DNA of 62,990 bases. It comes from Robiginitomaculum sp. (GTDB lineage Bacteria; Pseudomonadota; Alphaproteobacteria; Caulobacterales; Maricaulaceae). Positions 45,870 through 62,850 of this stretch are shown piece after piece. Below the pieces are notes generated by a model. That model worked only from the letters and a program-made list of their open reading frames with translations, had not been told where the DNA came from and searched no databases. A program made the position numbers and the translations under genes. Within the stretch, counting starts at the first letter, position 1; every line of letters begins with the position of its first letter. The stretch covers positions 1-62,990 of the forward strand of contig JAJFFQ010000047.1 in the NCBI GenBank assembly GCA_021776565.1, in the 5' to 3' direction.

Positions 45870-45875
45870 GGCTGG

Positions 45876-47672
45876 TTAACCCCGTTCAATGCGATAAAGC
45901 GCAAAGGGAAGCGGCGCGAACTCGACAGCCAGGTTTTCTGCATCCAGCATTTTGCCACTGACAAAGCGCGAGGGGGCAAAAACCAGATGCCGTTTATCGG
46001 GGTGTGCAGCCGCGATTTTGCGGGCAAAAGACAGGGTGAATGCCGCATCCGGAGATTTCAGCCAATCCAGATCGGGCTTGTAGATCAACCAGACTACCGG
46101 CCCGCCACTATCGCCCAGATAAAAGTCCGGTTCGCGAATGTTCGCCAAATCCAGTGGCATATTGGTCGCCATGTGGAACAACACTGCGCCCAGGCCGGCA
46201 TAAGTGGGCAATGTCTCGCCGGTGAGGATTTTATCCAGCTCCACCGGCGGCCCCAGCGTGCACCAGGTAAATTCCCCGCCCAGGCCTTCGGTGCGGCCTT
46301 TGACTTTCTTTTCGCCGGTGACGACAAAAACGCCATTCTTGACCGTCTTTTTGATAGCGTCGTATTCATGACCGTGCAGATTTTCGATTACATCCACGGA
46401 TTTAACCAAAGCGTCGGCCTTTTTAAGCTGTGTCCAGCCTAGTTTCTGGCGCAGTAATTCGGTTTTTTGGGTGCCTTGATAGTCATAGCCGTTGATGACC
46501 CGGCGCACCCGCTCGGCGGTTAGATTATCGGCATAATCCTCCATCTCAACCATGATGAATTTGCGCTTGCCACCGTCCTTTTTGTTGGCCTCAAGCACCG
46601 CATGGGCCGTGGTGCCGGAACCGGCGAAAGAGTCGAGGATGAGGGAGTTTGCTTTAGTAGCAAGATTTAATATTTTCCCAACCAAAGGAACGGATTTAGG
46701 GGTATCAAATATATCTTCACTAGTTCCAAAAATTTCCTTCAATTTCTGCTTAGCTGATTGAGTATGCCCAACTTCATCATATGTCCAAATTGTCATACTT
46801 GTTGTGCCATCTTTGACTTCAGAAAGAAATGTTTTCAATGAAGGAACGTTTCCTCCATCTTGACCAAACCATATCCGATTGTCAGAAACTAATTCTTCAA
46901 AACGTGATCTTGATACAGACCAACACCTACTTGTCGGCGGATTAGTCACGCGACCATTTGGTGTTGTTATTGGATAATCATTCCCCGCTGCATAAGTTTT
47001 GACGGATAAATCTACTGTCTTCCATCTTCCACGTGGATCGTTATCGGGGTTTTGATAACGGGCATTCATGCTTACAGTTCTAGCCAATGAATTTGGGCGC
47101 CAGTTTGATTTTTCCTTAGCATAAACAATGATGTGGTCATGGTTATCACTTAACCATTTTGCATCATTTTGCGGGCTGTATTTTTTTTGCCAAATAACGT
47201 TTGCTACAAAGTTTTCTTCACCAAATACCTCATCCAGAATTAACTTTCCACGATGTACTTCATTATCATCCAGCGTCATCCAGAAACTGCCATCTTCCGC
47301 CAGCAATTCATGCAACAGCCGCAGCCTCGGCCACATCATGGCGCACCATTTATCGTGGCGCAGGCCATCCTCAATGCCGATGGGGTTGTCTTGCAGCCAC
47401 GCCTTAATCATTGGCGCATTGACATTGTCATTATAGCACCAGCCCTCATTGCCGGTGTTGTATGGCGGGTCGATAAAAATGCAGTCCACCTTGCCCGCAT
47501 ACATCGGCAACAGCGCCTTTAAGGCGTGCAGATTATCGCCCTGAAGTATCAGATTACCGTCCAGGCGCGGATCGCCAATGCCTTTGCCCCTGTGCATTTC
47601 CAGTGGGCGAAATGGCACAGAGAGATGATGATTATAGACAAATTCCTTGCCCTTGAAACTTATCTCCGTCAC
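45876..47672 (-). CDS. mod: Type III-like DNA adenine methyltransferase (Mod)
   Basis: 598 residues from a GTG start at 47672 with GGGG upstream. Beta-class order: motif IV FIDPPYNTGNEGW (DPPY at 68-71) comes before motif I LDSFAGSGTTAHAVLEAN (about 345). Between them lies the target-recognition region, encoded by DNA visibly more AT-rich (about 46640-47240) than the flanks, as if exchanged. SFWMTLDDNEVHRGK and HIIVYAKEK are usual for Mod proteins. With the res gene it makes a restriction-modification pair; the recognition sequence is unknown. Confidence 0.88.
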   Translation of the reverse strand: MTEISFKGKEFVYNHHLSVPFRPLEMHRGKGIGDPRLDGNLILQGDNLHALKALLPMYAGKVDCIFIDPPYNTGNEGWCYNDNVNAPMIKAWLQDNPIGIEDGLRHDKWCAMMWPRLRLLHELLAEDGSFWMTLDDNEVHRGKLILDEVFGEENFVANVIWQKKYSPQNDAKWLSDNHDHIIVYAKEKSNWRPNSLARTVSMNARYQNPDNDPRGRWKTVDLSVKTYAAGNDYPITTPNGRVTNPPTSRCWSVSRSRFEELVSDNRIWFGQDGGNVPSLKTFLSEVKDGTTSMTIWTYDEVGHTQSAKQKLKEIFGTSEDIFDTPKSVPLVGKILNLATKANSLILDSFAGSGTTAHAVLEANKKDGGKRKFIMVEMEDYADNLTAERVRRVINGYDYQGTQKTELLRQKLGWTQLKKADALVKSVDVIENLHGHEYDAIKKTVKNGVFVVTGEKKVKGRTEGLGGEFTWCTLGPPVELDKILTGETLPTYAGLGAVLFHMATNMPLDLANIREPDFYLGDSGGPVVWLIYKPDLDWLKSPDAAFTLSFARKIAAAHPDKRHLVFAPSRFVSGKMLDAENLAVEFAPLPFALYRIERG

Positions 47673-48933: not shown

Positions 48934-49020
<87 letters not shown>

Positions 49021-49111
49021 AACTGCAATTTCATATTGTCCTATATTATCCAAAAACTCTTGATTTTTCAGGAATTTATTGGTATTCGTTGTCCAGCCCT
49101 GTCCGATACGG

Positions 49112-49167
49112 TGGGGGTATATCCTGATCAATTGGGGGTATTTTTGGGGGTATAATTCAAATACCCC
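49112..49167. repeat. Integrase arm-type repeats, left cluster
   Basis: Three direct copies of TGGGGGTAT (49112, 49133, 49145) and one shorter inverted copy (ATACCCC at 49161) lie between tRNA-Leu and the integrase start. Two more copies lie at the other end of the island (62242, 62254). The placement fits arm-type binding sites of the integrase or a directionality factor. Confidence 0.6.
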
Positions 49168-50388
49168 TTGGACGAGGAACATGCTATCGCGCTGACAGAT
49201 GCCAAATTACGGGCGTTAAAGCCTCGAAACAAACCCTATAAGCTCGCGGATTTTGATGGTCTTTATATTCACGTCACGGTCAAGGGCGGGAAGCTTTGGC
49301 GATTTAAGTTTCGATTTGCCGGGGTAGAACGGCTTCTTTCCTTTGGCCCCTATCCGGTAATCAGTTTGAAACAGGCGCGCAACTTGCGCGACGATGCCCG
49401 TGTCAACCTTACCAATGGTGTTGATCCGGCGAGCCTTAAACGAGAAGAGAAGCTGGGCGCGCAGGAAAATGCCAAGAATACCTTTGCCACTGCGGCTGAA
49501 GGTTATCTATCCAAAAAGACCAAAGAAGGCCGCGCTCCTGCCACGTTGCGTAAAATTGAATGGCTCTTGGGGCTAGCGAATACCGAATTTGGGAATTTTC
49601 CACTTTCTGAAGTATCGCCACGCACGGTCTTGGGGGTTCTTAAAAAACGCGAAAAACTGGGGCATTATGAAACCGCCAAAAAGATGCGCTCTACCATCGG
49701 CGGCGTGTTTCGTTTTGCCATCGCCAGCGGACTGGCAGACAATGACCCGACCTTTGCGCTGAAAGATGCCTTGATCAGCCCAACGGTTACCCACCGCGCA
49801 GCCATTACCGATAAAGCGGCATTGAGCGGTCTATTGCGCGCGATTGATGCGTATCACGGGCAAGCCACCACTCGAATTGCTCTTCGCCTGCTAATGCTTA
49901 CTGCTGCGCGACCCGGCGAGCTACGCGTCGCGCAATGGGACGAGTTTGATATTGAGCAGTGCGTCTGGAATGTGCCTGCCATTCGGATGAAAATGCGCAA
50001 AGCCCATAACGTCCCATTGTCCAAACCCACGCTGGGTTTGCTCGATGAACTGCGCGCCCAGACGGGTTGGGGTAAATTCCTGTTTCCGTCCAACGGCTCT
50101 TGCAAAAAACAGATCAGCGAAAATACGTTCAATCAAGCCTTGCGCCGAATGGGGTATGGCCCGGATCAGGTAACAGCACACGGCTTTCGCGCTACCTTCT
50201 CGACCTTGGCCAATGAAAGCGGCCTCTGGCACCCTGATGCAATTGAGCGGGCTATAGCGCATGTAGAAAAGAACGAAATCCGCCGAGCCTATGATCGCGG
50301 CCAACATTGGGATGAGCGGGTAAGGCTAGCGGATTGGTGGGGGGAGGTGCTGGAAACACTGGCGATGGAAATTATCAACCCAATCTGA
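49168..50388 (+). CDS. int: Tyrosine integrase (P4-type, tRNA-targeting)
   Basis: About 406 residues. The N-terminal ALTDAKLRALKPRNKPYKLADFDGLYIHV is the DUF4102-type arm-binding domain of P4-like integrases. The catalytic domain shows AARPGELRVAQW (first Arg), HGFRATFSTL (His-x-x-Arg), AIAHVEKNEIRRAYDRG (His and the Tyr nucleophile). It would integrate and excise the island at tRNA-Leu. The start is unclear: TTG at 49168 lacks a ribosome binding site, while GAGGA just inside would favour a start near ALTDAK. Confidence 0.93.
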   Translation: MDEEHAIALTDAKLRALKPRNKPYKLADFDGLYIHVTVKGGKLWRFKFRFAGVERLLSFGPYPVISLKQARNLRDDARVNLTNGVDPASLKREEKLGAQENAKNTFATAAEGYLSKKTKEGRAPATLRKIEWLLGLANTEFGNFPLSEVSPRTVLGVLKKREKLGHYETAKKMRSTIGGVFRFAIASGLADNDPTFALKDALISPTVTHRAAITDKAALSGLLRAIDAYHGQATTRIALRLLMLTAARPGELRVAQWDEFDIEQCVWNVPAIRMKMRKAHNVPLSKPTLGLLDELRAQTGWGKFLFPSNGSCKKQISENTFNQALRRMGYGPDQVTAHGFRATFSTLANESGLWHPDAIERAIAHVEKNEIRRAYDRGQHWDERVRLADWWGEVLETLAMEIINPI

Positions 50389-50431
50389 TAATACCGCTTG
50401 AGTGTGCTCGGAAGGCAAGCAAGGAAAAGCT

Positions 50432-50848
50432 GTGGAAGATATAGATTTTTGGAGGCTGTGTGATGACTTGTCTGTGGTGCAGGCCGCCTTACTTTTACTT
50501 GGCCATGACCCCTCCCCTTATGAAGCAGGTGTAGAAAATTGGGCGAACAAGAAACAGCCCAGAGGGTACAATGCAGCAAAGACTGCGATTCTGGGCGCGG
50601 TGAAAAATAAGCTGATTGATGGCGAATTAGGATATGAAGAATACGACCATCATCATGATCCATATCTCTCTCCGCAATTATCAACTGTAAAAGTTGAAAG
50701 CTTCAAGAATTGGATGCGTAGCCGAGGGTTTGAGAGTCACGTTTTCTTTTTTCCCGAAGGTGAAGATGGTGAGCTTTTGAACGAAACCCACCCTCGTTAT
50801 TCGCCAAAGCTGGCCGCTGCTATAAAGGCTTGGAAAGCACTTGATTAA
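50432..50848 (+). CDS. Hypothetical protein between two recombinases
   Basis: 138 residues from a GTG at 50432 with AAGGA 6 nt upstream; an ATG-less frame extends earlier. It reads VEDIDFWRLCDDLSVVQAAL, then LLLGHDPSPYEAG, suggesting a helical N terminus. AAKTAILGAVKNKLIDGEL is a second helical stretch, and FKNWMRSRGFESHVFF follows an acidic histidine segment (YDHHHDPY). I do not recognise a named family. Position suggests an accessory or directionality factor of the island, which is inference. Confidence 0.6.
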   Translation: MEDIDFWRLCDDLSVVQAALLLLGHDPSPYEAGVENWANKKQPRGYNAAKTAILGAVKNKLIDGELGYEEYDHHHDPYLSPQLSTVKVESFKNWMRSRGFESHVFFFPEGEDGELLNETHPRYSPKLAAAIKAWKALD

Positions 50849-50899
50849 TGGAACCTTTCAATCCCCACCTGAAACATAACTTACGTCACGGAGGCTAAC

Positions 50900-51922
50900 A
50901 TGGCTAAAATCATAGAAGAAAACGAGCGGATAAAACGCCGATACATGGCCTATCTGAAAGGACCAAAGGGGCGGGATGAAAAAACCATAAACAAAGTGGC
51001 GGCGGCAATACGAAAGTTTGAAGACAGCACGGGCTATAAACCATTCAAGAAGTTCCATATTGACCAGGGCGGCAAGTTTAGAGCTTACCTTGAAAACGCC
51101 AAAAACCCGAGTACCAAGCGCCCGCTCAGCCATGCCACAATTGACGCCACACTGCGCTTGGTCAAAGCATTCTTTCTCTGGCTCTCTGAACAGCCCGGTT
51201 ATAAATCACGTATCAGTTATATTGATGCGGAATATTTCAATAACAATCGCAAAAACGCTCGCATTGCCCACACTCAACGCCCCATTGCCTATCCATCCCT
51301 GGAGCAATGCAAGCGGGCGTTTGAGGCTATGCCAGAGGCCGATGAGACACAAATGCGGGACAAGGCTGTGTTTGCTCTTACTTTGCTCACAGGGGCGCGC
51401 ATAAAGGCTGCATCTACATTGCGACTCAAGCATGTTGATCTGGAAGAGGGTTATATTTTGCAAGATGCCCGTGATGTAATCACCAAAAATGCCAAAACCA
51501 TTCCCTCCTGGTTTTTCCCGGTGGATCAAGTGTATTTTGATTACTTTAAGCGCTGGGTGCAATATTTGCGCGAAGACAAATTATTCGGCCCCGAAGATGC
51601 CCTGTTACCGAAACCCAAAATGGGGTTGGGGCCAAATGGCGGCTTTGCCAATTTAGGGCTGTCGCGAGACTGCTACCGAAGCGCGGCAAAATTCAACACT
51701 GTATTGAAAACGGCATTCAGCATGGTGCAAATGCCCGCCTATACACACCATAGTTTGCGTAAAACACTTGGGATATTGCTCAATGATAAATGCAATACTC
51801 CCGAAGAGGTGAAAGCTTGGTCAATGAATATGGGGCATGAGCATGTCGCCACAACAATCAAGGCCTATATGCCAGTCAGCGTGCAGCGCCAGGGCGAATT
51901 GATTAAGGCGATGCGAGGATAA
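50900..51922 (+). CDS. Second tyrosine recombinase / integrase family protein
   Basis: 340 residues with GGAGG 6 nt before the ATG. The N-terminal SAM-like DNA-binding domain (KFEDSTGYKPFKKFH through ATLRLVKAFFLWLSEQPG) is followed by catalytic motifs TGARIKAASTLRLKHVDL (Arg), HHSLRKTLGILL (His-x-x-Arg), MGHEHVATTIKAYM (His and Tyr). It resembles site-specific recombinases found on islands next to a main integrase. It could act with the upstream integrase or be the remnant of a second element. Confidence 0.87.
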   Translation: MAKIIEENERIKRRYMAYLKGPKGRDEKTINKVAAAIRKFEDSTGYKPFKKFHIDQGGKFRAYLENAKNPSTKRPLSHATIDATLRLVKAFFLWLSEQPGYKSRISYIDAEYFNNNRKNARIAHTQRPIAYPSLEQCKRAFEAMPEADETQMRDKAVFALTLLTGARIKAASTLRLKHVDLEEGYILQDARDVITKNAKTIPSWFFPVDQVYFDYFKRWVQYLREDKLFGPEDALLPKPKMGLGPNGGFANLGLSRDCYRSAAKFNTVLKTAFSMVQMPAYTHHSLRKTLGILLNDKCNTPEEVKAWSMNMGHEHVATTIKAYMPVSVQRQGELIKAMRG

Positions 51923-52000: not shown

Positions 52001-54073
52001 TCAAACCAGATCAGCCAAAAAATCTGATTCCGGCTTGACCCCTGTGACCAGCAAATTTTCTCTCGCTCTTGTACATGCAACATACAATAAATGGCGTTCA
52101 GTGGTGTAGACCTCATCCAAATCTTCTTCGGTGACAATACTTTCGATCCGGCTCTGCAAGGGAAGCTGGTCATCATCACAGGCCATTACGACTACGGAGC
52201 GAAATTCGAGGCCTTTAGCAAGTTGCATAGTCCCAATGGGTAGCACCTTTTCTTTGATTGCCAGTTTCTCGTTCAAAGTTTGTGCATGGACACCCAACAT
52301 ATCTGCAACTGCACGGGCCCGTGTTAGCGCGGCCTCAGACCGCACAAAAATGCCTATTTCTGAAAGTGGTGTTTCATCATTGATGGCGGTTTGTATCCAG
52401 CTGGCCACCATTTTAATTTCGGCTTCCTGGCTCTCAAAAGTCCTAATATCGGGAGCTGGTCCATTAAAGACGGATATGGTTCCCCCCCGATCCTCTTCCA
52501 GCCCGTCCATGTCGCGAATGACCTCTGGCAGCAGCTTGTCAGCCACCATACGAACTTGATGTGATGTGCGGTAATTGACCTTAAGCGTAGCCGAGCGCCC
52601 CCGTACATCCACACCCAAAGACTTCCAGGAGAATGGTAGTTTGAAAATACGTTGACCCAAATCCCCTGCAAAGAAGAGTGCGTTATCGGTATCAGGCGTT
52701 ATAGCCGCCAGGAATTTTAATTCAGCAACATCTAAATCCTGCGCCTCATCAACAATGGTGTGGGTGTAGGGCTTCTCAGGCTTATCTAAATAACTGGCTT
52801 CTACCAGTCCGAACAACATCGGCTCCGTGAGTTTGTCAGATGAGATGATTGCTTGTCTTACAGCGGCAAAAACGGGCCACATTCTGGCGCGTTGTCCCCT
52901 GGGTACTCTGCTGCGCCTGCCAATGCGGGCAATATCAAGATAATCCTCTTCGCTTGCTACCTGCCAGGCATCAATCACAGATTGCCACTCGGACCACAAA
53001 AAGGTCTGGTCTTCATCAGGTCCGTGTTTCAGCAATAAAGCCTTAATCCGGGCATCATTCACAAGATATGGCTTGTGGCCGCTCATCAGCTCATACAAAT
53101 CACTGGCAGCGTCTACAAATGAGGCAACATGGATGTTAGGTGCCAGTGTATCTTCATTGCCATCCAGTATCCCGACTTTTCGGGACAATGCTGAAGCCAG
53201 TGGGCGGGAAAACGTGGTCAGCAAAATCTTTGTACCGGGTTCTTTTGAAAGCCTGTGTGCACGGTGCAAGGCTACAACGGTTTTGCCCGTTCCCGCCGAT
53301 CCGGCGATGCGGGCCGGACCTTGAAAGTCTCGATCAACAAATTCGCGCTGGCTGGGGTGCAGAAAAACCGACCATTGATCGCGCGGGTAATCCAGTGCCT
53401 GTTCCAGCTCTTCCTTGCCTTCAATAACGCGAAAGCGTCGTTGCTCGTCTGGATGAACAAAGGAATCGGGGATTTGAGCGCCGCGATATTCTTTTCCACG
53501 GATGGGCTTTTCGCCGACAGCCAGCGCTAACACAGCTTCACTGGCCTCATCAGGCAGGTGCGCTGCCAGCTCTAGCAGCCGCTCCTCACCCGCCCTTAGC
53601 AAGGCATCAACCCATTGTTTGGGCACGCCATAGGACATCAATTCAGCGGGGCCAACATTCAATACAGACGTTGGCGGTCGCATTGTCTGTGGGATATGCG
53701 TAAGAAGTTCCAGAGTAGTAGCTTGTACAGGCGCTTCTGCAACGCGCTCAACCATCTCTACAATTTGTAGTGCACCTGTAACCGGATGGCGTTCAAACAC
53801 CCGCCGTTCTGCCCAGGCATAGGCATCATCATGATGGCCTACATAGCATAATGTCGTGCGGTCACCGGTTTTATGAATAATCAGGCGTATGTCGCGGCCA
53901 GCGCGAACAGACCAGAAATTTTTCTCCTTGGCCTTGTCAATACGGTGAACCTGCTTGCCTTTTCCCGTAGGGTCCATCTGTAACTCGAAAGCGCAGGTCT
54001 TCGCCGACTTCTGCGAGATGTTGTCCAGTTTGCCGAGAGCGGTCAGGAAGGTATTGGCGATGAAGAATTGCAA
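52001..54073 (-). CDS. UvrD-type helicase with RelE-like N-terminal domain
   Basis: 690 residues from a TTG at 54073, 2 bp after the upstream stop, with GAGGTGA inside the end of that gene. Residues about 1-92 (KNFWSVRAGRDIRLIIH, then TTLCYVGHHDDAYAWAERR) look like a RelE/YafQ-type mRNA-interferase fold. The SF1 helicase has Walker A GSAGTGKTVVALH (258-270), Walker B TIVDEAQDLD (439-448), GDLGQRIF, QLAKGLEFRSVVVM and YVACTRARENLLV (motif VI). It is the last gene of the six-gene cluster. Whether the RelE-like part still cleaves RNA, or only binds, cannot be told. Confidence 0.82.
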   Translation of the reverse strand: MQFFIANTFLTALGKLDNISQKSAKTCAFELQMDPTGKGKQVHRIDKAKEKNFWSVRAGRDIRLIIHKTGDRTTLCYVGHHDDAYAWAERRVFERHPVTGALQIVEMVERVAEAPVQATTLELLTHIPQTMRPPTSVLNVGPAELMSYGVPKQWVDALLRAGEERLLELAAHLPDEASEAVLALAVGEKPIRGKEYRGAQIPDSFVHPDEQRRFRVIEGKEELEQALDYPRDQWSVFLHPSQREFVDRDFQGPARIAGSAGTGKTVVALHRAHRLSKEPGTKILLTTFSRPLASALSRKVGILDGNEDTLAPNIHVASFVDAASDLYELMSGHKPYLVNDARIKALLLKHGPDEDQTFLWSEWQSVIDAWQVASEEDYLDIARIGRRSRVPRGQRARMWPVFAAVRQAIISSDKLTEPMLFGLVEASYLDKPEKPYTHTIVDEAQDLDVAELKFLAAITPDTDNALFFAGDLGQRIFKLPFSWKSLGVDVRGRSATLKVNYRTSHQVRMVADKLLPEVIRDMDGLEEDRGGTISVFNGPAPDIRTFESQEAEIKMVASWIQTAINDETPLSEIGIFVRSEAALTRARAVADMLGVHAQTLNEKLAIKEKVLPIGTMQLAKGLEFRSVVVMACDDDQLPLQSRIESIVTEEDLDEVYTTERHLLYVACTRARENLLVTGVKPESDFLADLV

Positions 54074-54075
54074 AG

Positions 54076-54294
54076 TCAGATCACCTCAACATATTTTGCG
54101 AGGTTAATACCTTTGCGAATTTCCGTTCCGTATGACCTAGGAATACCAGCCAGATCGGCTAGTTCATGTGAAGGTAAACTTCGTATCTGAGCAGCATATT
54201 TAATGCCGAAGAGGTGGACACTAGTGGCCGTTTCACCCTCAGGTGCTTGGGAATATATAGTAGCAAGTATTTTTGCCGCTTTTTCAATTTTCAC
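54076..54294 (-). CDS. Small HTH-like protein upstream of the RelE-UvrD helicase
   Basis: 72 residues from a GTG at 54294. KIEKAAKILATIYSQA precedes VHLFGIKYAAQIRSL and LADLAGIPRSYGTEIRKGIN, a helix-turn-helix-like end. It lies 2 bp before the helicase gene and 27 bp after the GIY-YIG gene, on the same strand. It may be a DNA-binding or antitoxin-like partner of the RelE-like domain, which is inference from position and size. Confidence 0.68.
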   Translation of the reverse strand: MKIEKAAKILATIYSQAPEGETATSVHLFGIKYAAQIRSLPSHELADLAGIPRSYGTEIRKGINLAKYVEVI

Positions 54295-54321
54295 TTTTCA
54301 CCTACGATGCTAGAGCTAAAA

Positions 54322-54933
54322 TTATAACTTAGTAAATTCCCAATGCTTTGTTGGTTCAAGCACCCATTGAGGACGCATTCCCTGCCCACTGAATGGTCTG
54401 TCCCACCCCGTCCCACATGGAACACCAATATTTGTTCCTTTATTTTTGTTCAAAAGTGGGTATTCGCCATCACCTAATTTTTCAGCAAATTTTTCAAGCA
54501 AATCGTGCTCAACTTGTTTGTAATAATCAGCTCTGTTTTTACGTCTTGGTTCACATATCCAAAAATCAAAGTTTGCACCATTTAGGCTTTGCATGAAATC
54601 AAAGATGGTTGTTTTATAATGTGCTTTCAATCGCACGATGATGTCTCCACGACCAATATATATTATATTTGAACAGCCACCGCCGTATCTTACAGTAAAA
54701 GGATTTGAAATCCTGATTACGTAAACTCCTCGTTTTAATTTTTTTAATTCAGTGTTGTGTGCTCTCTCGTAATCTTCTTCGAGATTCCAAATTACATGTT
54801 TAATTGCACTTTTTCTAAGTTCGTCTTGAACCGACTTAGGATATTCAGCATACATGGTTAGATCAAACCCGGCATCACGCGCCGCTATAGCAAGGTTTTG
54901 TTCATTCACTCTCATCCACGTGATGTCGCTCAT
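54322..54933 (-). CDS. GIY-YIG-like nuclease domain protein
   Basis: 203 residues from the ATG at 54933; AGGAG 7 nt upstream overlaps the stop codon of the methyltransferase gene, so translation is coupled. The motif elements are GVYVIRI (G70, Y72), IIYIGRG (Y93 to G95, R96), RLKAH (R102, H106), a glutamate at 143 (QVEHDLLEKF) and PLLNKNKG (N163), in the GIY-YIG order. An N-terminal region of about 65 residues has no known fold to me. The coding DNA is AT-rich. Confidence 0.78.
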   Translation of the reverse strand: MSDITWMRVNEQNLAIAARDAGFDLTMYAEYPKSVQDELRKSAIKHVIWNLEEDYERAHNTELKKLKRGVYVIRISNPFTVRYGGGCSNIIYIGRGDIIVRLKAHYKTTIFDFMQSLNGANFDFWICEPRRKNRADYYKQVEHDLLEKFAEKLGDGEYPLLNKNKGTNIGVPCGTGWDRPFSGQGMRPQWVLEPTKHWEFTKL

Positions 54934-54943
54934 CAAATTTCTC

Positions 54944-57943
54944 CTAAACCGTAAATACCTTCATCACTTCATCACCAAAGTGGTTTATTACTTTAACCGC
55001 GATGCGGCCTGTGGTTGGTCGTTTGAATGGCCTGGAAATATCGCGGTTGAGGCTGTCCCAGGCCTCGCGGTTGATCTCGGCCTTCAAACTCGTTTTCAGG
55101 GATTTATACGGGTCATTACCGCCCAGAAAATAGGCGTGGCGGACAAAGAAACTTTCTTCGTTATAAGCGGTGTCAATGAACCAGGCGGCAATGTCGTCAA
55201 GTTCGCCAGAGCGTATTTCGCCAGTGGCCGGTACGAACACGTCCATGCCGTGCAGTTTCACCTCCAGCTTGCCATCGGCCAACTCGTTGACGTCAACATC
55301 CGGCTCACCAATGACCATGAAGAGATTGCCCTTGCCGGTATTTTTCAGATCATCCGCCATGTGCAAATCGGGGTTCATTTTGGCCTTGATGATGTTCATC
55401 GGGCCAAGGCGGTTAAGCCCAGTGGTATGGGCATCAAAAGCAAAACCAACGGCGATCAGCACATCAAAGCGCGCATCCGTTGCCTCGCGGGCGGCGGCGG
55501 TTATGTCGGTGCGCTGCAAACTGCCATATTCCGGGCCAAGCAAAATGGCGGCGCGACGAGTCTTGTCTCCCTCGTTAAAATGCCCTTCGGCAGCGACCAG
55601 CTCACCCGGCCAGGGAGCAAGGTGGGTGAATTCCAGCCGGTCTTCTTTGGCCCCTTGTTGCACGCCGTGGGTGCGCAAATTGTCAAGAATGACCGTGGCA
55701 AAATCGGTTTCCGGGGCAAGGGACGAGCGCTTTAGCCTGCCCTCGGCGGCGTGGGTATCATCCAGAATGTCATCGCGATCATCCATGGCCACCACCCGGT
55801 GCGGCGACAGGCTCTCCACCGTAAATGGCCCGGCCACGCGAACGCGGGACTTGTCCTCATAGGGACGATCATAGAGCAGCTCCACATCGGCCTTTTGTGC
55901 GATGCTAGCATCGATTTCTTTTTGCCGGGCGATGCGTAGTTTCCACCAGTTTTCATGTAGGCGTTGCGGCTCGGTCACGTCCTCCCCCGCTAGCGGGGGA
56001 GGTGTCTGCGCAGCAGACGGAGGGGGTGATCCATTCTTGCCCCCCTCACCGCCTTTGGCGGCACTCCCCCCGCCATCGGGGGGAGAAAAGGTAAATTCGC
56101 GCGGGATTTCCCATTCTTCATACGCTGTGCCTAGCGCGGCGTTGAGTTTGGCCCGCAAGTCTTCAAGGTCCGGCTGGTATTTGTCCCAGATCACATCAAT
56201 TTCGGCATTGTTGGCGATGGATTTAAGGGTAATGTGCGGTGCACGTTCATAAACAAAGCCCTGTTTAAGATCGCCCAGGGTCGGGCTTTCGGGCGGAATT
56301 TTGCCCGAAACCTCGGCTTCCTTGCGCCGCCCTTCCGGGCTGTCTGTCAAAAGGTAATAGGGGTAACGCGCCGACATGATACGGGTGCGGGCCAGCGCCA
56401 ACGCCACGCGAGAGGTATCAATGGTAATCCATTTACGCCCCCATTGCTCGGCTACAGTGGCCGTGGTGCCAGAGCCGCAGGTCGGGTCAAGAACGATGTC
56501 GCCAGGGTCTGTGGCCATCAGGATGCAGCGTTGAATTATTTTTTCATTAGTTTGGACAACATAACTTTTATTTATTTCAGGCCCAGTATCAGTCCACGTT
56601 TCACTATACTCTGACAAAGAAAAATCGTAATGATAATATCGACTACTAAGCGCAGACTTGTCGGGTTGAATGCGAGCTGCCTTTATCAACCTATAAAAAC
56701 CAGCTAGCGAATGCCTCCAACTCCTATTTGCGGGAATAGACCAAGTTTTCCCAAAACAAGACCTCGTAGAATGGTCACCTGCATTCATTGAATGCAATGG
56801 TAACTTCCGAAATGGCCTCGCACCTTCGGGCAATGTGGCTGTATCAGATTTTTCTGCACGCGTCATTGTTCGAACAGTATTATTCGTTAAAAACAATTGA
56901 CTATACATAGTCGTTTCTATTTTTCTTTCCTTCAATATTCTCCTAAATTTAATATTATTGGAATTTTTTGAATACCATATTATATAGTCAGTTGTTCCTT
57001 TAAGAGAATTTGATCTAGTTGTGCCACTATTTGTTCGGCAATTTATTAGGTTAACAAAATTGTCTTCTCCAAATAATTCATCCATTACAGCTCTAACCCG
57101 GTGCATGTTTTCATCGGAAATTTGCACAAAAATGCTACCCGACTCGGTGAGTAAATCCCGCATCACCGTCATGCGGTCACGCAAATAGGTCAGGTAGGAA
57201 TGGATGCCGTCTTTCCAGGTGTCGCGAAAGGCTTTGACTTGCTCCGGTTCGCGGGTCAGGCTCTCCAGCTTGCCATCCTTGACGTCGCGATTGCGGGTGC
57301 TGACCTGCCAGTTGGAATTAAACTTGATGCCATAGGGTGGATCGAAATAAATGCACTGCACCTTGCCGCGCAGAGCCTCTCTCTCGGCAAGGCTGGCCAT
57401 CACCTGCAAGCTATCGCCCAAGATCATGCGGTTGGTCCAATGGATGTCATGGGCGTAAAACTCTGTGCGGGCCTCTAGGTCTATCCCGTTAAAGTCTGCG
57501 AACAAATCAACCATGGGCGCGCCCATCGCGGCGTCTTTGTCAGACATTCTTTTCAGCTCATCAATTAGCACACGCGGATGGATTTTTTCCTGCACATAGA
57601 TGGGCGGCACATTGACCACCAGATCAGACCAGTCCTGGGTGTCCTTGCCTGTCCACACCAATTGCGCCTCGCCCAATTGCAGTGTGCCAGTTTCGGCCAA
57701 CTGCTTTTGCTGTTCCCGCGTGATGGTGATTTTCACGCCTTTCCACAGCAATTGCGGGTCCAAACCTTCATTGCGCTCCCGGTGCTCGCCCTCAGCCAAT
57801 GGCGTCGCCCGTGGGTAGGATACCGGCTGGACCGGATTAACCTCCTCCGCCCGCTCTGCCAGCGATTGCAATTCCGCCGTAGGAATATTCTTCCGCCCAC
57901 CATCATGGGCATATGAGTCCAGCTTTTTGGGTTTCTTGGCCAT
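54944..57943 (-). CDS. Type III-like DNA adenine methyltransferase (Mod), large form
   Basis: 999 residues, larger than usual Mod proteins. Beta-class order: motif IV YFDPPYGIKFNS (201-212), then motif I LDPTCGSGTTATVAEQWG (about 485-502). Between them (residues 300-475, DNA 56518-57043) the sequence is AT-rich, as expected of an exchangeable target-recognition domain. Residues about 617-652 (SPPDGGGSAAKGGEGG and PPPSAAQTPPPLAGED) come from a palindromic repeat inserted in frame at 55981-56087. The C-terminal third, with VDVNELADGKLEVKLHG, is not typical Mod sequence. AGGA lies 12 nt before the ATG. Confidence 0.85.
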   Translation of the reverse strand: MAKKPKKLDSYAHDGGRKNIPTAELQSLAERAEEVNPVQPVSYPRATPLAEGEHRERNEGLDPQLLWKGVKITITREQQKQLAETGTLQLGEAQLVWTGKDTQDWSDLVVNVPPIYVQEKIHPRVLIDELKRMSDKDAAMGAPMVDLFADFNGIDLEARTEFYAHDIHWTNRMILGDSLQVMASLAEREALRGKVQCIYFDPPYGIKFNSNWQVSTRNRDVKDGKLESLTREPEQVKAFRDTWKDGIHSYLTYLRDRMTVMRDLLTESGSIFVQISDENMHRVRAVMDELFGEDNFVNLINCRTNSGTTRSNSLKGTTDYIIWYSKNSNNIKFRRILKERKIETTMYSQLFLTNNTVRTMTRAEKSDTATLPEGARPFRKLPLHSMNAGDHSTRSCFGKTWSIPANRSWRHSLAGFYRLIKAARIQPDKSALSSRYYHYDFSLSEYSETWTDTGPEINKSYVVQTNEKIIQRCILMATDPGDIVLDPTCGSGTTATVAEQWGRKWITIDTSRVALALARTRIMSARYPYYLLTDSPEGRRKEAEVSGKIPPESPTLGDLKQGFVYERAPHITLKSIANNAEIDVIWDKYQPDLEDLRAKLNAALGTAYEEWEIPREFTFSPPDGGGSAAKGGEGGKNGSPPPSAAQTPPPLAGEDVTEPQRLHENWWKLRIARQKEIDASIAQKADVELLYDRPYEDKSRVRVAGPFTVESLSPHRVVAMDDRDDILDDTHAAEGRLKRSSLAPETDFATVILDNLRTHGVQQGAKEDRLEFTHLAPWPGELVAAEGHFNEGDKTRRAAILLGPEYGSLQRTDITAAAREATDARFDVLIAVGFAFDAHTTGLNRLGPMNIIKAKMNPDLHMADDLKNTGKGNLFMVIGEPDVDVNELADGKLEVKLHGMDVFVPATGEIRSGELDDIAAWFIDTAYNEESFFVRHAYFLGGNDPYKSLKTSLKAEINREAWDSLNRDISRPFKRPTTGRIAVKVINHFGDEVMKVFTV
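55981..56087. repeat. Palindromic element inserted in frame in the mod coding sequence
   Basis: Three or more nested palindromes: a perfect 22-nt one (CCTCCCCCGC, TA, GCGGGGGAGG), GTCTGC/GCAGAC, and ACCGCC/GGCGGC with CTCCCC...GGGGAG. It is very GC-rich inside a more balanced gene. The frame stays open across it (about 35 codons). Similar GC-rich palindromes are common between genes in alphaproteobacteria and resemble in-gene palindromic elements known from Rickettsia. Confidence 0.8.
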
Positions 57944-58090
57944 TATCGACTTAATTCCTCGCTCTGAACATTTTTATTGAATATTAAACCCATACAACCT
58001 ATGTTGTCTGTGGAGGTTCGGCCTGCGGACGGTCCCCAAGGCGCTTGTCTTGATGGATGGTTGCACAGTGCATTACCTCCTTTTTTGTTT

Positions 58091-58981
58091 CTATGGCTCA
58101 TTATTTCTCCCGGTAAACGGGTCGGGAACATAGACAATGCCATAGAGATAGTGGGTGTTACCACCCTGATAGCTATCGCCCTTGAACTGTAAGGCATTCA
58201 AGCGCCCGCCGAATTTTTGGGCAATTTCCTCGCGGCGCGGACCTGTAAATTGCCAGGACTCCATTCTGAAACCCCAGTTTATACAATAGAGGCATAAATC
58301 GGCAGCCTGTACGCCTATGGACATTTCTGAATCAACAAACAAAGGGGAGGGGATAATCCATTGGGTGCGCGACCGACCGGTATGGGTTTTTGTATAATAA
58401 TTCTGCAATTGTTTGACGAACCGCTTGTCCTGCTGTTTTTCAGTTTGGTCCATTACAAACAGGCCATGTTCGGCCTTGTGCTCAAGAAAACAAAAAAAAC
58501 GTTCCTGCAAAAAGACGTGATCCTTGCGCAGATAATGGTTGAACTGAAAATCTCTGGGAGGTTTCACTCCTTTAGGAATTAGGCTGGCAAACAAAACGGC
58601 TTCATGCCGGGACAGCATATCAAAAATTCGTTCTGCCATCATAAGGCTTGCCTGACCATAGGCGGTAAAATCCCGCCTTGTAGGTGCTTCCTTTTGCTGT
58701 TTTTGGGTGAGAAAGCGATTTATAGCTTTATGCCTTGCTTCCTTGCTTAACGGATGCATTTGATCGGCCCACTCAATACGCTTACGCTCTAATAGCTTTG
58801 AGCCTTTAATTTCACCGCCCAATTCAATAAAGTTTGCGCCAAAGATTTCAGCGCGCGCTTTGTCCCAGTCCTGAATGAATGGCCAGATTTTACTGCTGTG
58901 GATCGCAATGCCACCACGCACCTCCATTGGCATATTTCTGTGGTCATGACCACTTTCGTCCATGAACAATAGCCAGCTCAT
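58091..58981 (-). CDS. DUF3800 protein, putative RNase H-like nuclease
   Basis: 296 residues. LLFMDESGHDHR at the N terminus, VMDQTEKQ, PLFVDSEMSIGVQAADLCLYC give the pattern of acidic residues of DUF3800 proteins, which look like RNase H-fold nucleases. Its ATG overlaps the Res gene stop by one base (TAATG), a strong sign of coupled translation. It is followed by a 147-bp gap before the methyltransferase gene, which may hold a second promoter. DUF3800 genes occur near several defence systems, but the biochemical role is not established. Confidence 0.82.
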   Translation of the reverse strand: MSWLLFMDESGHDHRNMPMEVRGGIAIHSSKIWPFIQDWDKARAEIFGANFIELGGEIKGSKLLERKRIEWADQMHPLSKEARHKAINRFLTQKQQKEAPTRRDFTAYGQASLMMAERIFDMLSRHEAVLFASLIPKGVKPPRDFQFNHYLRKDHVFLQERFFCFLEHKAEHGLFVMDQTEKQQDKRFVKQLQNYYTKTHTGRSRTQWIIPSPLFVDSEMSIGVQAADLCLYCINWGFRMESWQFTGPRREEIAQKFGGRLNALQFKGDSYQGGNTHYLYGIVYVPDPFTGRNNEP

Positions 58982-61974
58982 TATGCAGACAACACCTCCG
59001 CAACCATCTTCCCAAACGCGTCTTCGATTTCAAACACATCCAGGAACTCTGCAAAGGCCCATTTGCCAAATCGTTCGGCATTATTGACGCCGGGAATCCA
59101 CAGGGTTTTCATGGTGTCGGCTTTGATGATGGCATTGGTGTCGCGATAGCCCTTGATCTCAATAATCAGGTGCAGTAGTTCGCCGCCAGTATCCAGCTTG
59201 ACGATAAAGTCTGGCACATAGCGATGAACGCTGGAGCCTTTACGATATGGCACCTCCAGGCCTAACCCCTGATTTTTCACATAAGCAATAACTTTGGGAT
59301 GGGCCTCAGCCACGCGGGCCATTTCTGCTTCCCAGGTGCTGTCTTCCACAACATGGCTGACATGGGATTTATTCGGGTCTGTGGCAAACACTGGTTTGGA
59401 GGTGATAAAGCCTACATGGCGGGTACTACCCTCTGGGTTGTAGGGATCAATGATCGCCTTGATACGTTTGGTTGCATTGGCCTGTTCTTGCTTGTCAGCC
59501 CAGCGATTATACGCCAGAAATATTTTGTCCGCCGCCATATCGGCCAATTCCTGATAGGCTAACATTCCCGGCACCGTATTACCGGTGCATTTGAGGTGTC
59601 CCTCATCAAGCCATGGTTTAACGATCCGCTTTACAGGCCCAAACAAATTCATATTTGGCCCGGTTTGTTCGTCACGAAAGCGGGTGTTTAGAAGACGCTT
59701 TGTTACATGGTAGGCCAATGAAGACGGGCGTTTCAATTTCTCAAACGCATCGTTTGGCTCCATCGTTTCAGTTTCACCAACAATGCCTGACATGATGGTT
59801 TTACAGGGGCCGACAAGCTCTGGCGTGAGGCTAAGGACGGAATCTTCGTTAAACTCAGCACCGATCCTTTTATCCGGTAACTCGATTCTGTATCCATCAA
59901 CGCGGGGGAACCTGATCTCAAGATGAGCCCGTTCTTTAACAGCAGCAACACGAGTTGTCGGTTTTGGTGCCGAAGGCGGGGCAATGGTCGGCTTGGCCGT
60001 AAAGTCAAAGGGAATGCCCATAATATCGGCATATTCGACATCAAACAGGCCATCTTTGTTCAGCTCATAGGATTTACGACGCAGCGCACGCCCAACCACC
60101 TGTTCACATAAAAGCTGTGTACCAAAAGCCCGGATGCCCAAAATATGGGTAACCGTATTGGCATCCCAGCCTTCAGTCAGCATGGAGACGGACACCACAC
60201 AACGAATGTTTTCGCCCAGACGACCTTTCTCACCAACTGTATTCATGACTTCGCGCAAAAGCTGCTCATCATCAATCTTGGTGTTTGGATATTGACGTTG
60301 AAACAACTCAATTTCACTAGCCATAGCTTTTTTGAATTGAGCGGTCATGCCTTCGCCAGATTCAATCTGGGCGCTATCAATCAAGAATGTATTCGGTTTG
60401 GCCATACGCTGCCCGTGCTCATCAAAATTGCTGAACATTTTTAGATTTGCAGGCATCCACTTTGCCGGTTCAGTGTCTGTCTCAGGCGTTTCGTACCCCG
60501 CCACCCAATCATGCACGATTTGTGAGGTTGATGTGTTATTGCATACGATAATGAAAACCGGTGGAACCTGGTGTCCGTTTGCCCGCCATTCTGCATCGGT
60601 TTTCTCATAATGGCTGTAAAGGGAGTTTAGCGCAGTCTGCAAAGGAAGAGGTAATTCTTCAACTGGTCCACCCCCCCCTTTTGAACGTCCCTTTTTTGGC
60701 ATTTTCTTGCCAATATGGTCCCACAGGTTTCGATATACTGGCTTACCATCCACTGTTGGCATATTGTCAAGAATGGGCACGCGGGGGAGTTTTACGATAC
60801 CGCACTCAATGGCATCCATGAGAGAGAAATCTGAAATGGTCCAGGGGAATAAAGTACCTTCCCTGTAGCCTGAACCTGACAGAAAGAACGGCGTTGCGGA
60901 AAGGTCATAAACCCCTGCAAGACCAAGATTACGCTTTACCGCTTCGATCCCGTTGATCCACAACCGTGCGGTTTCTGCATTTTCCTTACCCTCAACGGTT
61001 TTCTTTTCCTGTGACTCCGGGTTTTCACGGTAACAATGATGCGCCTCGTCATTAATGACCAAAATATTCTTTGTGCCCATCAAATCGCCAAGGGCACGGC
61101 GCAACATCTCTCCTTCTGTTTCAAGGGTTTTAACGTCTTCGCCACGCCAACCAGTTAGCGCGCTACGGGTGCCTTTGGATAACTTTACTTTTTCGCGTTT
61201 TTGAAAGGCATGGTAATTGGTAATGACCACTTTAGCTCTGGAAAGGTCGCCTACCATGTCAGAGGGTATGAGCTCACGGTCGGTATAATAGCTATCAGCG
61301 CTTCCCGGTTGTAGCACACGCAAGCGGTCTTTGATGGTGATACCCGGTGCAATAATAAGGAAGCCTTTTGTAAAAAGCTTGCTGCCTGGACTTCTGACCG
61401 CATTAAGCGTTTGCCAGGCAATGAGCATTGCCATGACAGTGGTTTTACCCGCTCCGGTAGCCATTTTGAGGGCTAGCCGCATGAGTTCTGGATTGGCTTC
61501 TGCGTTGCCGCCTTCTATGTGGTGCCAGATGTTGGCGTATTTCTTTTGCTTTCGGGCCACTTCCGTGAGCCAAATAATCGTTTCCGCCGCTTCGCGTTGG
61601 CAAAAAAATGGGCGTATCGTTTCAAAATTCGCTTCGTCTCGCCAATACTGCAATAAACGTTGCGTTGTTGGGGTTACGCCCCAGTCCGATGGAGATGGTA
61701 TTTCTCGCCATGTTTTTACGTGAGAACGTATCTCGTTAATGAGGTTGTGCGGATTATACTTATCAAGCACACCTTCAAGCATATCTGGTTGTTCAGACGC
61801 TTTTTCTGATCGCTTGGCCTTAGGGACTGGCGAGTAAAGGCTGGACCTGCGCCTGCCCATTTTTGGCAATGCGTTTGTTGGCTGGCCACTTTCATCTAAA
61901 TCATGGTGCTGGCTTGGCTCCTCATAGGGAGAGTTCAATATAGGGTTTGCAAAAAAATCGTGTGTATCGCTCAT
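58981..61974 (-). CDS. Restriction Res-type helicase-nuclease (BPTD_3080-like)
   Basis: 997 residues from the ATG at 61974 (TTG at 61977 also possible). Helicase motifs: Walker A LKMATGAGKTTVMAMLIA (about 170-187), Walker B VINDEAHHCYRE, LSATPFFLSG, GWDANTVTHI and QVVGRALRRKSYE. The C-terminal end has YVPDFIVKL, then LIIEIKGYRD, a PD-(D/E)xK nuclease. The N-terminal SPYEEPSQH region is specific to this subfamily. The gene starts the six-gene cluster; its stop overlaps the DUF3800 start. It probably pairs with the methyltransferase at 54944. Confidence 0.88.
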   Translation of the reverse strand: MSDTHDFFANPILNSPYEEPSQHHDLDESGQPTNALPKMGRRRSSLYSPVPKAKRSEKASEQPDMLEGVLDKYNPHNLINEIRSHVKTWREIPSPSDWGVTPTTQRLLQYWRDEANFETIRPFFCQREAAETIIWLTEVARKQKKYANIWHHIEGGNAEANPELMRLALKMATGAGKTTVMAMLIAWQTLNAVRSPGSKLFTKGFLIIAPGITIKDRLRVLQPGSADSYYTDRELIPSDMVGDLSRAKVVITNYHAFQKREKVKLSKGTRSALTGWRGEDVKTLETEGEMLRRALGDLMGTKNILVINDEAHHCYRENPESQEKKTVEGKENAETARLWINGIEAVKRNLGLAGVYDLSATPFFLSGSGYREGTLFPWTISDFSLMDAIECGIVKLPRVPILDNMPTVDGKPVYRNLWDHIGKKMPKKGRSKGGGGPVEELPLPLQTALNSLYSHYEKTDAEWRANGHQVPPVFIIVCNNTSTSQIVHDWVAGYETPETDTEPAKWMPANLKMFSNFDEHGQRMAKPNTFLIDSAQIESGEGMTAQFKKAMASEIELFQRQYPNTKIDDEQLLREVMNTVGEKGRLGENIRCVVSVSMLTEGWDANTVTHILGIRAFGTQLLCEQVVGRALRRKSYELNKDGLFDVEYADIMGIPFDFTAKPTIAPPSAPKPTTRVAAVKERAHLEIRFPRVDGYRIELPDKRIGAEFNEDSVLSLTPELVGPCKTIMSGIVGETETMEPNDAFEKLKRPSSLAYHVTKRLLNTRFRDEQTGPNMNLFGPVKRIVKPWLDEGHLKCTGNTVPGMLAYQELADMAADKIFLAYNRWADKQEQANATKRIKAIIDPYNPEGSTRHVGFITSKPVFATDPNKSHVSHVVEDSTWEAEMARVAEAHPKVIAYVKNQGLGLEVPYRKGSSVHRYVPDFIVKLDTGGELLHLIIEIKGYRDTNAIIKADTMKTLWIPGVNNAERFGKWAFAEFLDVFEIEDAFGKMVAEVLSA

Positions 61975-62241
61975 CAATCCTTTCTAATACCCATAATAGT
62001 AAATGCAAACATGTTCTTAAATTATACCGATTATGTGAGATGCTATATAGCCATAAAAAAGGAATAAATATTCAAATCTACAATTTTTGTGACTACCTCG
62101 TGATATGATATTATTTTAGTGGTGTCGGTTTCTAGGCAAATGCAACATAATTTCGGGCTCTTATTTCATTAGAGGCAGAGGTGCGTAGAAAATTTTTCCG
62201 GTGTCTCTAGGTTGGGTGTTTTGAAGTGATTTTATCCGATT

Positions 62242-62592: not shown

Positions 62593-62850
62593 ATGGCAAC
62601 GATTAAAACCACATTGAGTTTAACAAACTTAGACCGAAATTGGATGAGTAGCATTATTGCTAGTGGAGAATTTGTAAGCAGCAGTGAATATGTGCGCGCT
62701 CTTATTCGCAACGATAAAGAAAAGCGTAGTGAAATTGATCAAATTCGTGCCAAGCTCATAAAAGCAGAAAAAAGTGGATATACGTCCCTTTCACGCGAGG
62801 AAATTTTGTCAGAGCTAAAAGAAGAATTGAGGAGCAATGGCGAATTATAA
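62593..62850 (+). CDS. parD: ParD-family antitoxin
   Basis: 85 residues with GGAG 7 nt before the ATG. The ribbon-helix-helix ATIKTTLSLTNLDRNWMSSI, then SSSEYVRALIRNDKE, matches ParD. The C-terminal part differs from the copy at 41608, but the arrangement (antitoxin first, toxin overlapping by 14 bp) is the same. The toxin gene is cut by an IS element. Located just outside the island's likely right edge, in AT-rich DNA. Confidence 0.88.
   Translation: MATIKTTLSLTNLDRNWMSSIIASGEFVSSSEYVRALIRNDKEKRSEIDQIRAKLIKAEKSGYTSLSREEILSELKEELRSNGEL

Follow-up and report, generated by a model that had tools for sequence, protein, structure and literature searches.

Comparison of the reading frames in a 62,990-nt stretch of contig JAJFFQ010000047.1 from Robiginitomaculum sp. 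(the window, taken at its full length) revealed a cluster of six genes, all on the minus strand, encoding in order a helicase-nuclease (Res), a DUF3800 protein, a type III-like DNA methyltransferase (Mod), a GIY-YIG-like protein, a small helix-turn-helix (HTH) protein, and a RelE-UvrD helicase resembling ArmD of the ARMADA systems (Table 1). The first-pass annotation of this DNA had described six genes on one strand, and the spacing calculated from the coordinates, from Res to the helicase, is indeed -1, 147, 10, 27, and 2 bp. We consider it probable (about 0.62) that the cluster is a type III-like restriction-modification (R-M) operon in which an ArmD-like helicase forms a third core component and exchangeable cargo occupies two slots. 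The cluster is thus better viewed as a single instance of a modular antiviral operon than as a fixed six-part machine: Res, Mod, and the helicase recur in most related loci, and the genes between them change.

Res scored 1244.5 bits against the NCBIfam model NF046055 (BPTD_3080 family restriction endonuclease; cut-off 800), aligned over residues 10-990 of 998. The motifs GAGKT (175), DEAH (310), PD (922), and ExK (940-942) are at least 95% conserved in 99 aligned sequences, and by these motifs Res combines a superfamily 2 (SF2) helicase with a PD-(D/E)xK nuclease, as expected of a type III enzyme. The Pfam model ResIII matched above its cut-off (39.6 versus 22.5 bits) and RE_endonuc below it (20 versus 23.4 bits); no PDB sequence matched at an E-value of 0.01, and the matches to the PADLOC type III models were weak (best 6.8e-5).

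Mod matched the PADLOC type III methyltransferase model PDLC03632 at 1112 bits. Its top PADLOC matches are type III and type II methylases (the best 25 of 50 matches were considered for Mod, and the best 25 of 35 for the helicase), and its top PDB sequence matches are the Mod proteins 6k0w and 4zcf, EcoP15I Mod included. Motif IV (DPPY, 201) precedes motif I (DPTCGSG, 486), both at least 95% conserved in 78 aligned sequences; with the hypervariable stretch of about residues 300-455 lying between them, this is the type III layout of an N6/N4 methylase. A proline/glycine-rich stretch at about residues 626-652 (about positions 55990-56070 of the window) has the look of an inserted linker; in one 25-residue block its mean identity to homologues is about 1%.

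The third core protein is a UvrD helicase both by Pfam and by fold (best PDB fold match 4c30, E-value 4e-21; model predicted local distance difference test score, pLDDT, 85). Among its PADLOC matches, a NERD+UvrD candidate model comes first (88.4 bits), followed by GajB models (best 69.7 bits). When 62 full-length homologues from related loci were aligned, the N-terminal domain showed a column occupancy of at least 90% over 63 sequences. HigB- or ParE-type toxin models matched all ten scanned helicase N-termini, the window's included, with E-values of 0.013 or better and mostly below the curated cut-off; the window domain itself matched ParE_like at 0.013, below threshold, and the one from locus L122 exceeded the cut-off. 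These profile matches, together with the strand-helix order in the model, which agrees with the RelE fold, place the domain in the RelE superfamily, as the first-pass annotation had proposed; a PDB sequence-profile search with the domain gave no meaningful match to RelE.

The other gene identities given in that annotation were likewise upheld for Res (NF046055), Mod (PDLC03632), UvrD (Pfam and fold), the DUF3800 protein (PF12686, 54.6 bits), and the HTH protein (HTH_73, PF24718, 90.9 bits). The GIY-YIG-like protein has no Pfam match, no match in the PDB profile search, and no fold match (poor model, pLDDT 65). By motif, it is a putative nuclease: the residues VY, YIG, R (R101), E (E142), and N (N162) are invariant in four of four sequences, the window's included. 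Neither promoter-like sites (17 in the window versus 13.0 in shuffled sequence, standard deviation (sd) 3.9) nor terminator-like sites (14 versus 11.8, sd 3.5) are in clear excess, so the argument for co-expression is drawn from the gene spacing.

Table 1. Features of the cluster and its flank, with positions of reading frames in the window
Feature	Position	Strand	Remarks
Res	58981..61977	-	core gene 1, BPTD_3080-family helicase-nuclease; ATG start at 61974
DUF3800 protein	58091..58981	-	slot 1 cargo; 1-bp overlap with Res stop
Slot 1 (region between Res and Mod)	57944..58980	-	content differs among relatives
Mod	54944..57943	-	core gene 2, type III-like N6/N4 methyltransferase
Presumed target-recognition domain of Mod	56579..57046	-	one of three variable segments; about residues 300-455
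Slot 2 (region between Mod and helicase)	54074..54943	-	content differs among relatives
GIY-YIG-like protein	54322..54936	-	slot 2 cargo; ATG at 54933
HTH_73 small HTH protein	54076..54294	-	slot 2 cargo
RelE-UvrD SF1 (superfamily 1) helicase, ArmD-like	52001..54073	-	core gene 3
RelE/HigB-superfamily N-terminal domain of helicase	53756..54073	-	about residues 1-106
tRNA-Leu(CAG), tyrosine integrase (49168-50388), and second integrase-like gene (50900-51922)	48934..51922	+	ARAGORN, Pfam

Distribution of the three core genes

A search for the Res family in 398 genomes of the same phylum found a match above the cut-off in 27 of them, that of the window included. The census of gene order covered 109 related loci (L031-L139), namely 29 longer stretches and the best 80 of at least 585 relatives from named genomes, and the conservation counts therefore describe the near clade; one contig is present twice, as L035 and L083. 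A locus was taken to have room for Mod if its sequence ran on for at least 4 kb past Res, and room for the helicase if it ran on for at least 5 kb past Mod. Res is followed by Mod on the same strand in 82 of the 86 loci with room, and Mod is followed by a UvrD helicase of the RelE-fused type, again on the same strand, in 58 of 67. By record titles, with named genera assigned to their classes, the hosts of three-gene loci include Alpha-, Beta-, Gamma-, and Deltaproteobacteria, Planctomycetota (L082, L127), Nitrospira (L123), Nitrospinae (L132), and a metagenome-assembled genome of Fermentithermobacillaceae (L120). In six loci (L031, L040, L064, L122, L125 from Xenophilus sp. AP218F, and L136) neither slot contains a called gene.

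The core is also found on plasmids. Res was detected by tblastn in 40 plasmid records, and three of the four plasmid regions that were opened carry all three core genes by homology: (i) a conjugative Pseudomonas avellanae plasmid has the bare triplet, as annotated in RefSeq and confirmed by homology for each gene, and (ii) the Rhizobium leguminosarum and Sphingomonas aliaeris plasmids have the core with filled slots, the S. aliaeris Mod being split into two frames.

The association is also seen from the side of the helicase. A profile of its RelE-like domain plus linker matched 29 of the 398 genomes, and 17 of the 19 strong matches (>260 bits) lie beside this Res family on the same contig. In G018, the strong match is on a different contig and the Res contig ends inside Mod; in G004, which has no Res match, it begins at the contig edge. 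A weaker group (64 to 156 bits; G006, G097, G002, G140, G075, and G214) adjoins in all six cases a long frame of 2,104-2,155 amino acids (aa) (1,281 aa in L172, where it is cut by the contig end). The three of these long proteins that were scanned resemble the giant helicase DruE, with a type IIG-like methylase alongside in two loci, and the loci in question (L169-L174) are probably ARMADA type II-like. No long frame of this kind adjoins the fragment in G116 (170 bits) within the 6 kb covered; three further matches scored under 30 bits.

The genes between the core genes behave differently. Searches with the window proteins found the six-gene set in 0 of the 109 loci, and the idea of a unit conserved in this order across unrelated hosts, by which the first-pass annotation would have recognized a system, was largely refuted for these loci. 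What stands of the proposal of a single system is the three-gene core with exchangeable extras. The DUF3800 protein has no homologue in any of the 109 loci by phmmer, and it was rejected as a core gene. HTH_73 was found in one, L101, immediately before the helicase, and GIY-YIG-like homologues in three, always in slot 2 (L060, L109, and L132; 48, 41, and 41% identity). Both are thus recurrent but optional, and the UvrD gene, which the same annotation had allowed might be a chance neighbour, is not one, given its retention beside Mod. The idea that HTH_73 always accompanies the helicase was also rejected: it occurs in 9 of the 398 genomes, and the other eight lack this Res above the cut-off. 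In at least three of these (L178, L180, and L184), the genes next to HTH_73 were read by eye as HsdM-like, C5-methylase-like, and DUF262-like, which suggests a small regulator that may associate with restriction genes generally.

Slot cargo and the Mod recognition segment

Slot genes were called by a longest-frame rule that misses small genes; the Pfam scans and tree labels took in same-strand frames of at least 100 aa, and a slot labelled empty is one with no such frame. Among 81 slot 1 proteins of at least 100 aa, the Pfam families include Bro-N (12 proteins), NYN (8), GmrSD_N (7), Fic (6), PIN (6), REase-ARP (3), and DUF3800 (1, the window's). The 98 slot 2 proteins include AAA_15 (7), HNH_2 (4), SIR2_2 (4), HerA DUF87 (3), ThsB TIR (2), and subtilase (2), and in PADLOC they match AriA-, PtuA-, and GajA-like models (6 each, overlapping sets of ATPases) and HEC-01A (4). 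The family counts may overlap and were taken from the 25 commonest Pfam families, to none of which many slot proteins belong. The cargo is thus rich in toxin and defence families, with PARIS-, Septu-, and Gabija-like ATPases, AriA-like (PARIS) proteins of slot 2 among them, and unknowns. Of 20 slot proteins scanned singly, four had no Pfam match, and the slots therefore offer a list for discovery.

To follow cargo turnover, slot contents were mapped onto a FastTree phylogeny of 90 Res proteins, in which 23 of 86 inner forks are open (support under 80). Slot 1 requires at least 51 content changes (34 states, 88 rows) versus 56.7 (sd 1.1) for shuffled labels, and slot 2 at least 54 (49 states, 68 rows) versus 56.6 (sd 0.6). 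These values are near the shuffled ones, so common descent is only faintly visible in the cargo. L060, the closest relative found (Res 83% identical), already differs in slot 1, and in its slot 2 the GIY-YIG-like gene is followed by one that matches Lactamase_B. The first slot 1 gene overlaps the Res stop by exactly 4 bp in 25 of 61 cases, as expected for translational coupling; the overlap in the window is 1 bp.

Differences between close relatives concentrate at three points: slot 1, the target-recognition domain of Mod, and slot 2. In the pair L062/L063 (Sphingobium terrigena EO9 and Rhizorhapis suberifaciens DSM 7465), whose Res proteins are 98% identical, DNA identity is 91% across Res, 87-88% on either side of a break in Mod, and 92% in the helicase gene and beyond it, and the unaligned regions are slot 1, about 475 bp inside Mod, and slot 2. 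The Mod segment of about residues 300-455 is 36% identical at the protein level in this pair, versus 94% for the rest of Mod. A break in the Mod alignment was observed in all seven close pairs, hand-picked from the tree with L076 used twice, and also between the window and L060. Breaks at the slots do not occur in every pair: slot 2 is common to L075 and L076, and L110 has the same first slot 1 gene as L086.

The same segment stands out in the alignment to the window Mod, where, among the 25-residue blocks listed, the six covering 301-450 have mean identities of 15-29%, and the flanking blocks 86 and 66% before and 53 and 87% after. Lying between motifs IV and I, it presumably reads the DNA and would be the target-recognition domain. 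Its GC content is 0.381, versus 0.537 and 0.558 in the rest of Mod, and that of the GIY-YIG-like gene is 0.385, versus 0.511 in the helicase gene; both AT-rich segments are in keeping with a separate origin.

Interpretation and comparison with known systems

The anatomy of the three-gene core and its slots is well supported by these counts. From it, and from the better-known relatives, we infer a mechanism in which Mod would mark self DNA and Mod with Res would detect and cut unmarked DNA. Type III Mod-Res complexes scan for unmethylated sites and cut after ATP-driven communication along the DNA. Exchange of the recognition domain in Mod would alter the target of both enzymes at once; protection and attack would change together, which would explain why this segment can be exchanged on its own. 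The ArmD-like helicase would act with Res-Mod on the attacked DNA, most likely in end sensing, translocation, or unwinding, and its fixed third place suggests, by analogy, a DNA step after recognition; its RelE-like part may cut RNA. The slot genes, here DUF3800 and then the GIY-YIG-like and HTH_73 genes, would be separate effectors in the same operon, probably a second line of defence, and might be held in check by the core in the manner of PrrC and its restriction system. A multi-step anti-phage response, as suggested in the first-pass annotation, would be plausible for the whole.

The system shares features with several known ones. Window Res exceeds the curated cut-off of the BPTD_3080 family, and RefSeq gives its plasmid relatives the same name; that entry covers the Res protein only, and not the helicase, the slots, or the exchangeable recognition domain. 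Type III R-M systems of the EcoP15I kind have the same Mod layout (motif IV, variable segment, motif I) and the same SF2 helicase plus PD-ExK Res. Their usual gene order is Mod then Res, from which the present system differs by the order Res then Mod, by the third core gene, and by the cargo slots. The resemblance to Gabija lies in the GajB models matching the helicase; the RelE-like N-terminus and the fixed partnership with Res-Mod set the window protein apart, and GajA is not among the PADLOC matches listed for the six window proteins, so the cluster is not classed as Gabija. For the related GajB, recognition of DNA ends and stimulation of the nuclease it works with have been reported (PMC10952713).

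With ARMADA type II, the window shares a RelE-UvrD, GajB-like helicase as in ArmD, a likeness judged from profile and fold matches, and differs in having type III-like Res and Mod in place of proteins of the ArmA, ArmB, and ArmC kinds. An assignment to ARMADA was rejected, since no YprA-like ArmC, BrxHII-like ArmA, or PglX-like ArmB is among the PADLOC matches listed for the six proteins. In ARMADA II, deletion of ArmD, as the RelE-UvrD protein is named there, or its K266A substitution abolishes defence (Bell et al. 2025, PMC12458937), and a helicase of this kind can therefore be essential.

Effectors inside modification-based defence operons are already known, from PrrC and from toxins or nucleases in R-M or BREX operons (PMC3710099, PMC12839542, PMC12707154). 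PrrC, encoded within a type I restriction locus, is switched on when that system is inhibited (PMC3710099), auxiliary nucleases lie within BREX loci (PMC12839542), and a review groups PrrC and PARIS as "RM guardian systems", which sense when R-M is inhibited (PMC12707154). The window differs from such embedding by two fixed slots in a defined three-gene core and by turnover between near-identical cores. The core of BPTD_3080-type Res, Mod, and ArmD-like helicase, the two fixed slots, and their turnover appear to be new: no description of them was found in titles and abstracts of the open-licence literature, which is weak evidence of absence. The name BPTD_3080 was absent from the open-licence literature searched.

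Several observations weigh against a three-gene operon with dependent cargo. The helicase is missing in 9 of the 67 loci with room. The exceptions to the order Res then Mod are L050, L051, L053, and L084, and in the diverged L050 and L051 Mod lies ahead of Res and there is no helicase. On the fourth plasmid opened, from Methylibium, a Tn3 transposase comes next after Res, and the part that was read contains neither Mod nor helicase. Among 31 relatives from a viral collection, 13 have the helicase; L200, L201, L208, and L213 (Res 47-49% identity) have Mod and 4-5 kb beyond it but no helicase, and neither has L207 (54%), with Mod and about 5 kb, the remaining helicase-less loci of this collection having less room after Mod or no Mod in the sequence. 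Res-Mod can thus exist without the helicase, and the three-gene core characterizes a large clade but does not extend to the whole Res family. The 147-bp gap upstream of Mod could hold a promoter, no activity reports were found for the BPTD_3080 Res family, and BrxU, which is homologous to GmrSD and encoded next to BREX, functions separately from that system (PMC12707154), a counter-example to restraint of cargo by the core.

Within the viral collection, the loci L200-L206, L208, L213, and L218 (Res 46-49% identical) all have Mod and no helicase in the available sequence, which extends 4-5 kb beyond Mod only in L200, L201, L208, and L213. They possibly form a two-gene sister clade.

The alternative that survives best, though we regard it as doubtful, is a plain two-gene type III-like R-M system in a defence hot spot, with cargo and helicase as independent passengers that would gain easy homologous exchange and shared transcription without working with Res-Mod. 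The near-random distribution of cargo on the Res tree, the helicase-less loci, and the BrxU precedent agree with it, as do slots that hold apparent whole systems (SIR2 plus HerA pairs in L112 and L120, and the HEC-01A matches of slot 2); the retention of the helicase in most loci with room, and of nearly all its strong relatives beside this Res, is unlike a free passenger, an objection that applies to the helicase and not to the cargo. Next comes a chassis with a common trigger, in which the core would sense foreign DNA or its own inhibition and activate whichever effector sits in the slot. Such unlike families as nucleases, NYN/PIN RNases, Fic, SIR2, and TIR do occupy the same two positions in near-identical cores, often directly at the stop of the upstream gene, and the published guardian role of PrrC and PARIS offers a precedent; no interaction part common to the cargo proteins was seen, however (mean column identity of the slot alignments 8% and 5%), and we consider this alternative unlikely. 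A dedicated six-part machine for recognition, unwinding, and cutting by several nucleases, although suggested by the single strand, the tight spacing, and the recurrence of the GIY-YIG-like gene in one slot, is very improbable, as the set was found in none of the other 109 loci and the nearest relative found has different slot contents.

For the preferred reading, an R-M operon with an ArmD-like third gene and cargo slots, several consequences follow. The three-gene core turns the name of a single protein into a defined, widespread unit and, by the type of helicase that the two have in common, connects type III-like restriction with ARMADA. The two fixed slot positions let unknown genes be read as likely defence effectors, and guarding of effectors by the core of a restriction operon becomes testable. 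As a tentative extension, Res-Mod-ArmD might be a general-purpose immune chassis, whose engagement or failure would activate the effectors in the two coupled slots; if so, a lineage could alter its target without its weapon, or the reverse, through three separate exchange points, namely the recognition domain and the two slots.

Flanking features

Two integrase genes and tRNA-Leu(CAG) adjoin the cluster, which may therefore sit in a mobile island with these genes as its possible edge. An ungapped scan of the window for a further copy of the tRNA-Leu end gave none; the contig stops at 62990. Between the integrase genes lies a 148-aa frame (50402-50848, plus strand) without a Pfam or NCBIfam match. 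Another type III pair (43257-47672, minus strand), in the order Mod then Res (MTase_III 705 bits, REase_III 629 bits), lies close by on the far side of the tRNA-Leu as seen from the integrases, which places two type III-like systems inside 19 kb. Past the other end of the cluster, Pfam identifies a ParD-like antitoxin gene (62593-62850, plus strand), and the right contig end shows by eye the apparent start of an insertion-sequence transposase, with GC content down to 0.345.

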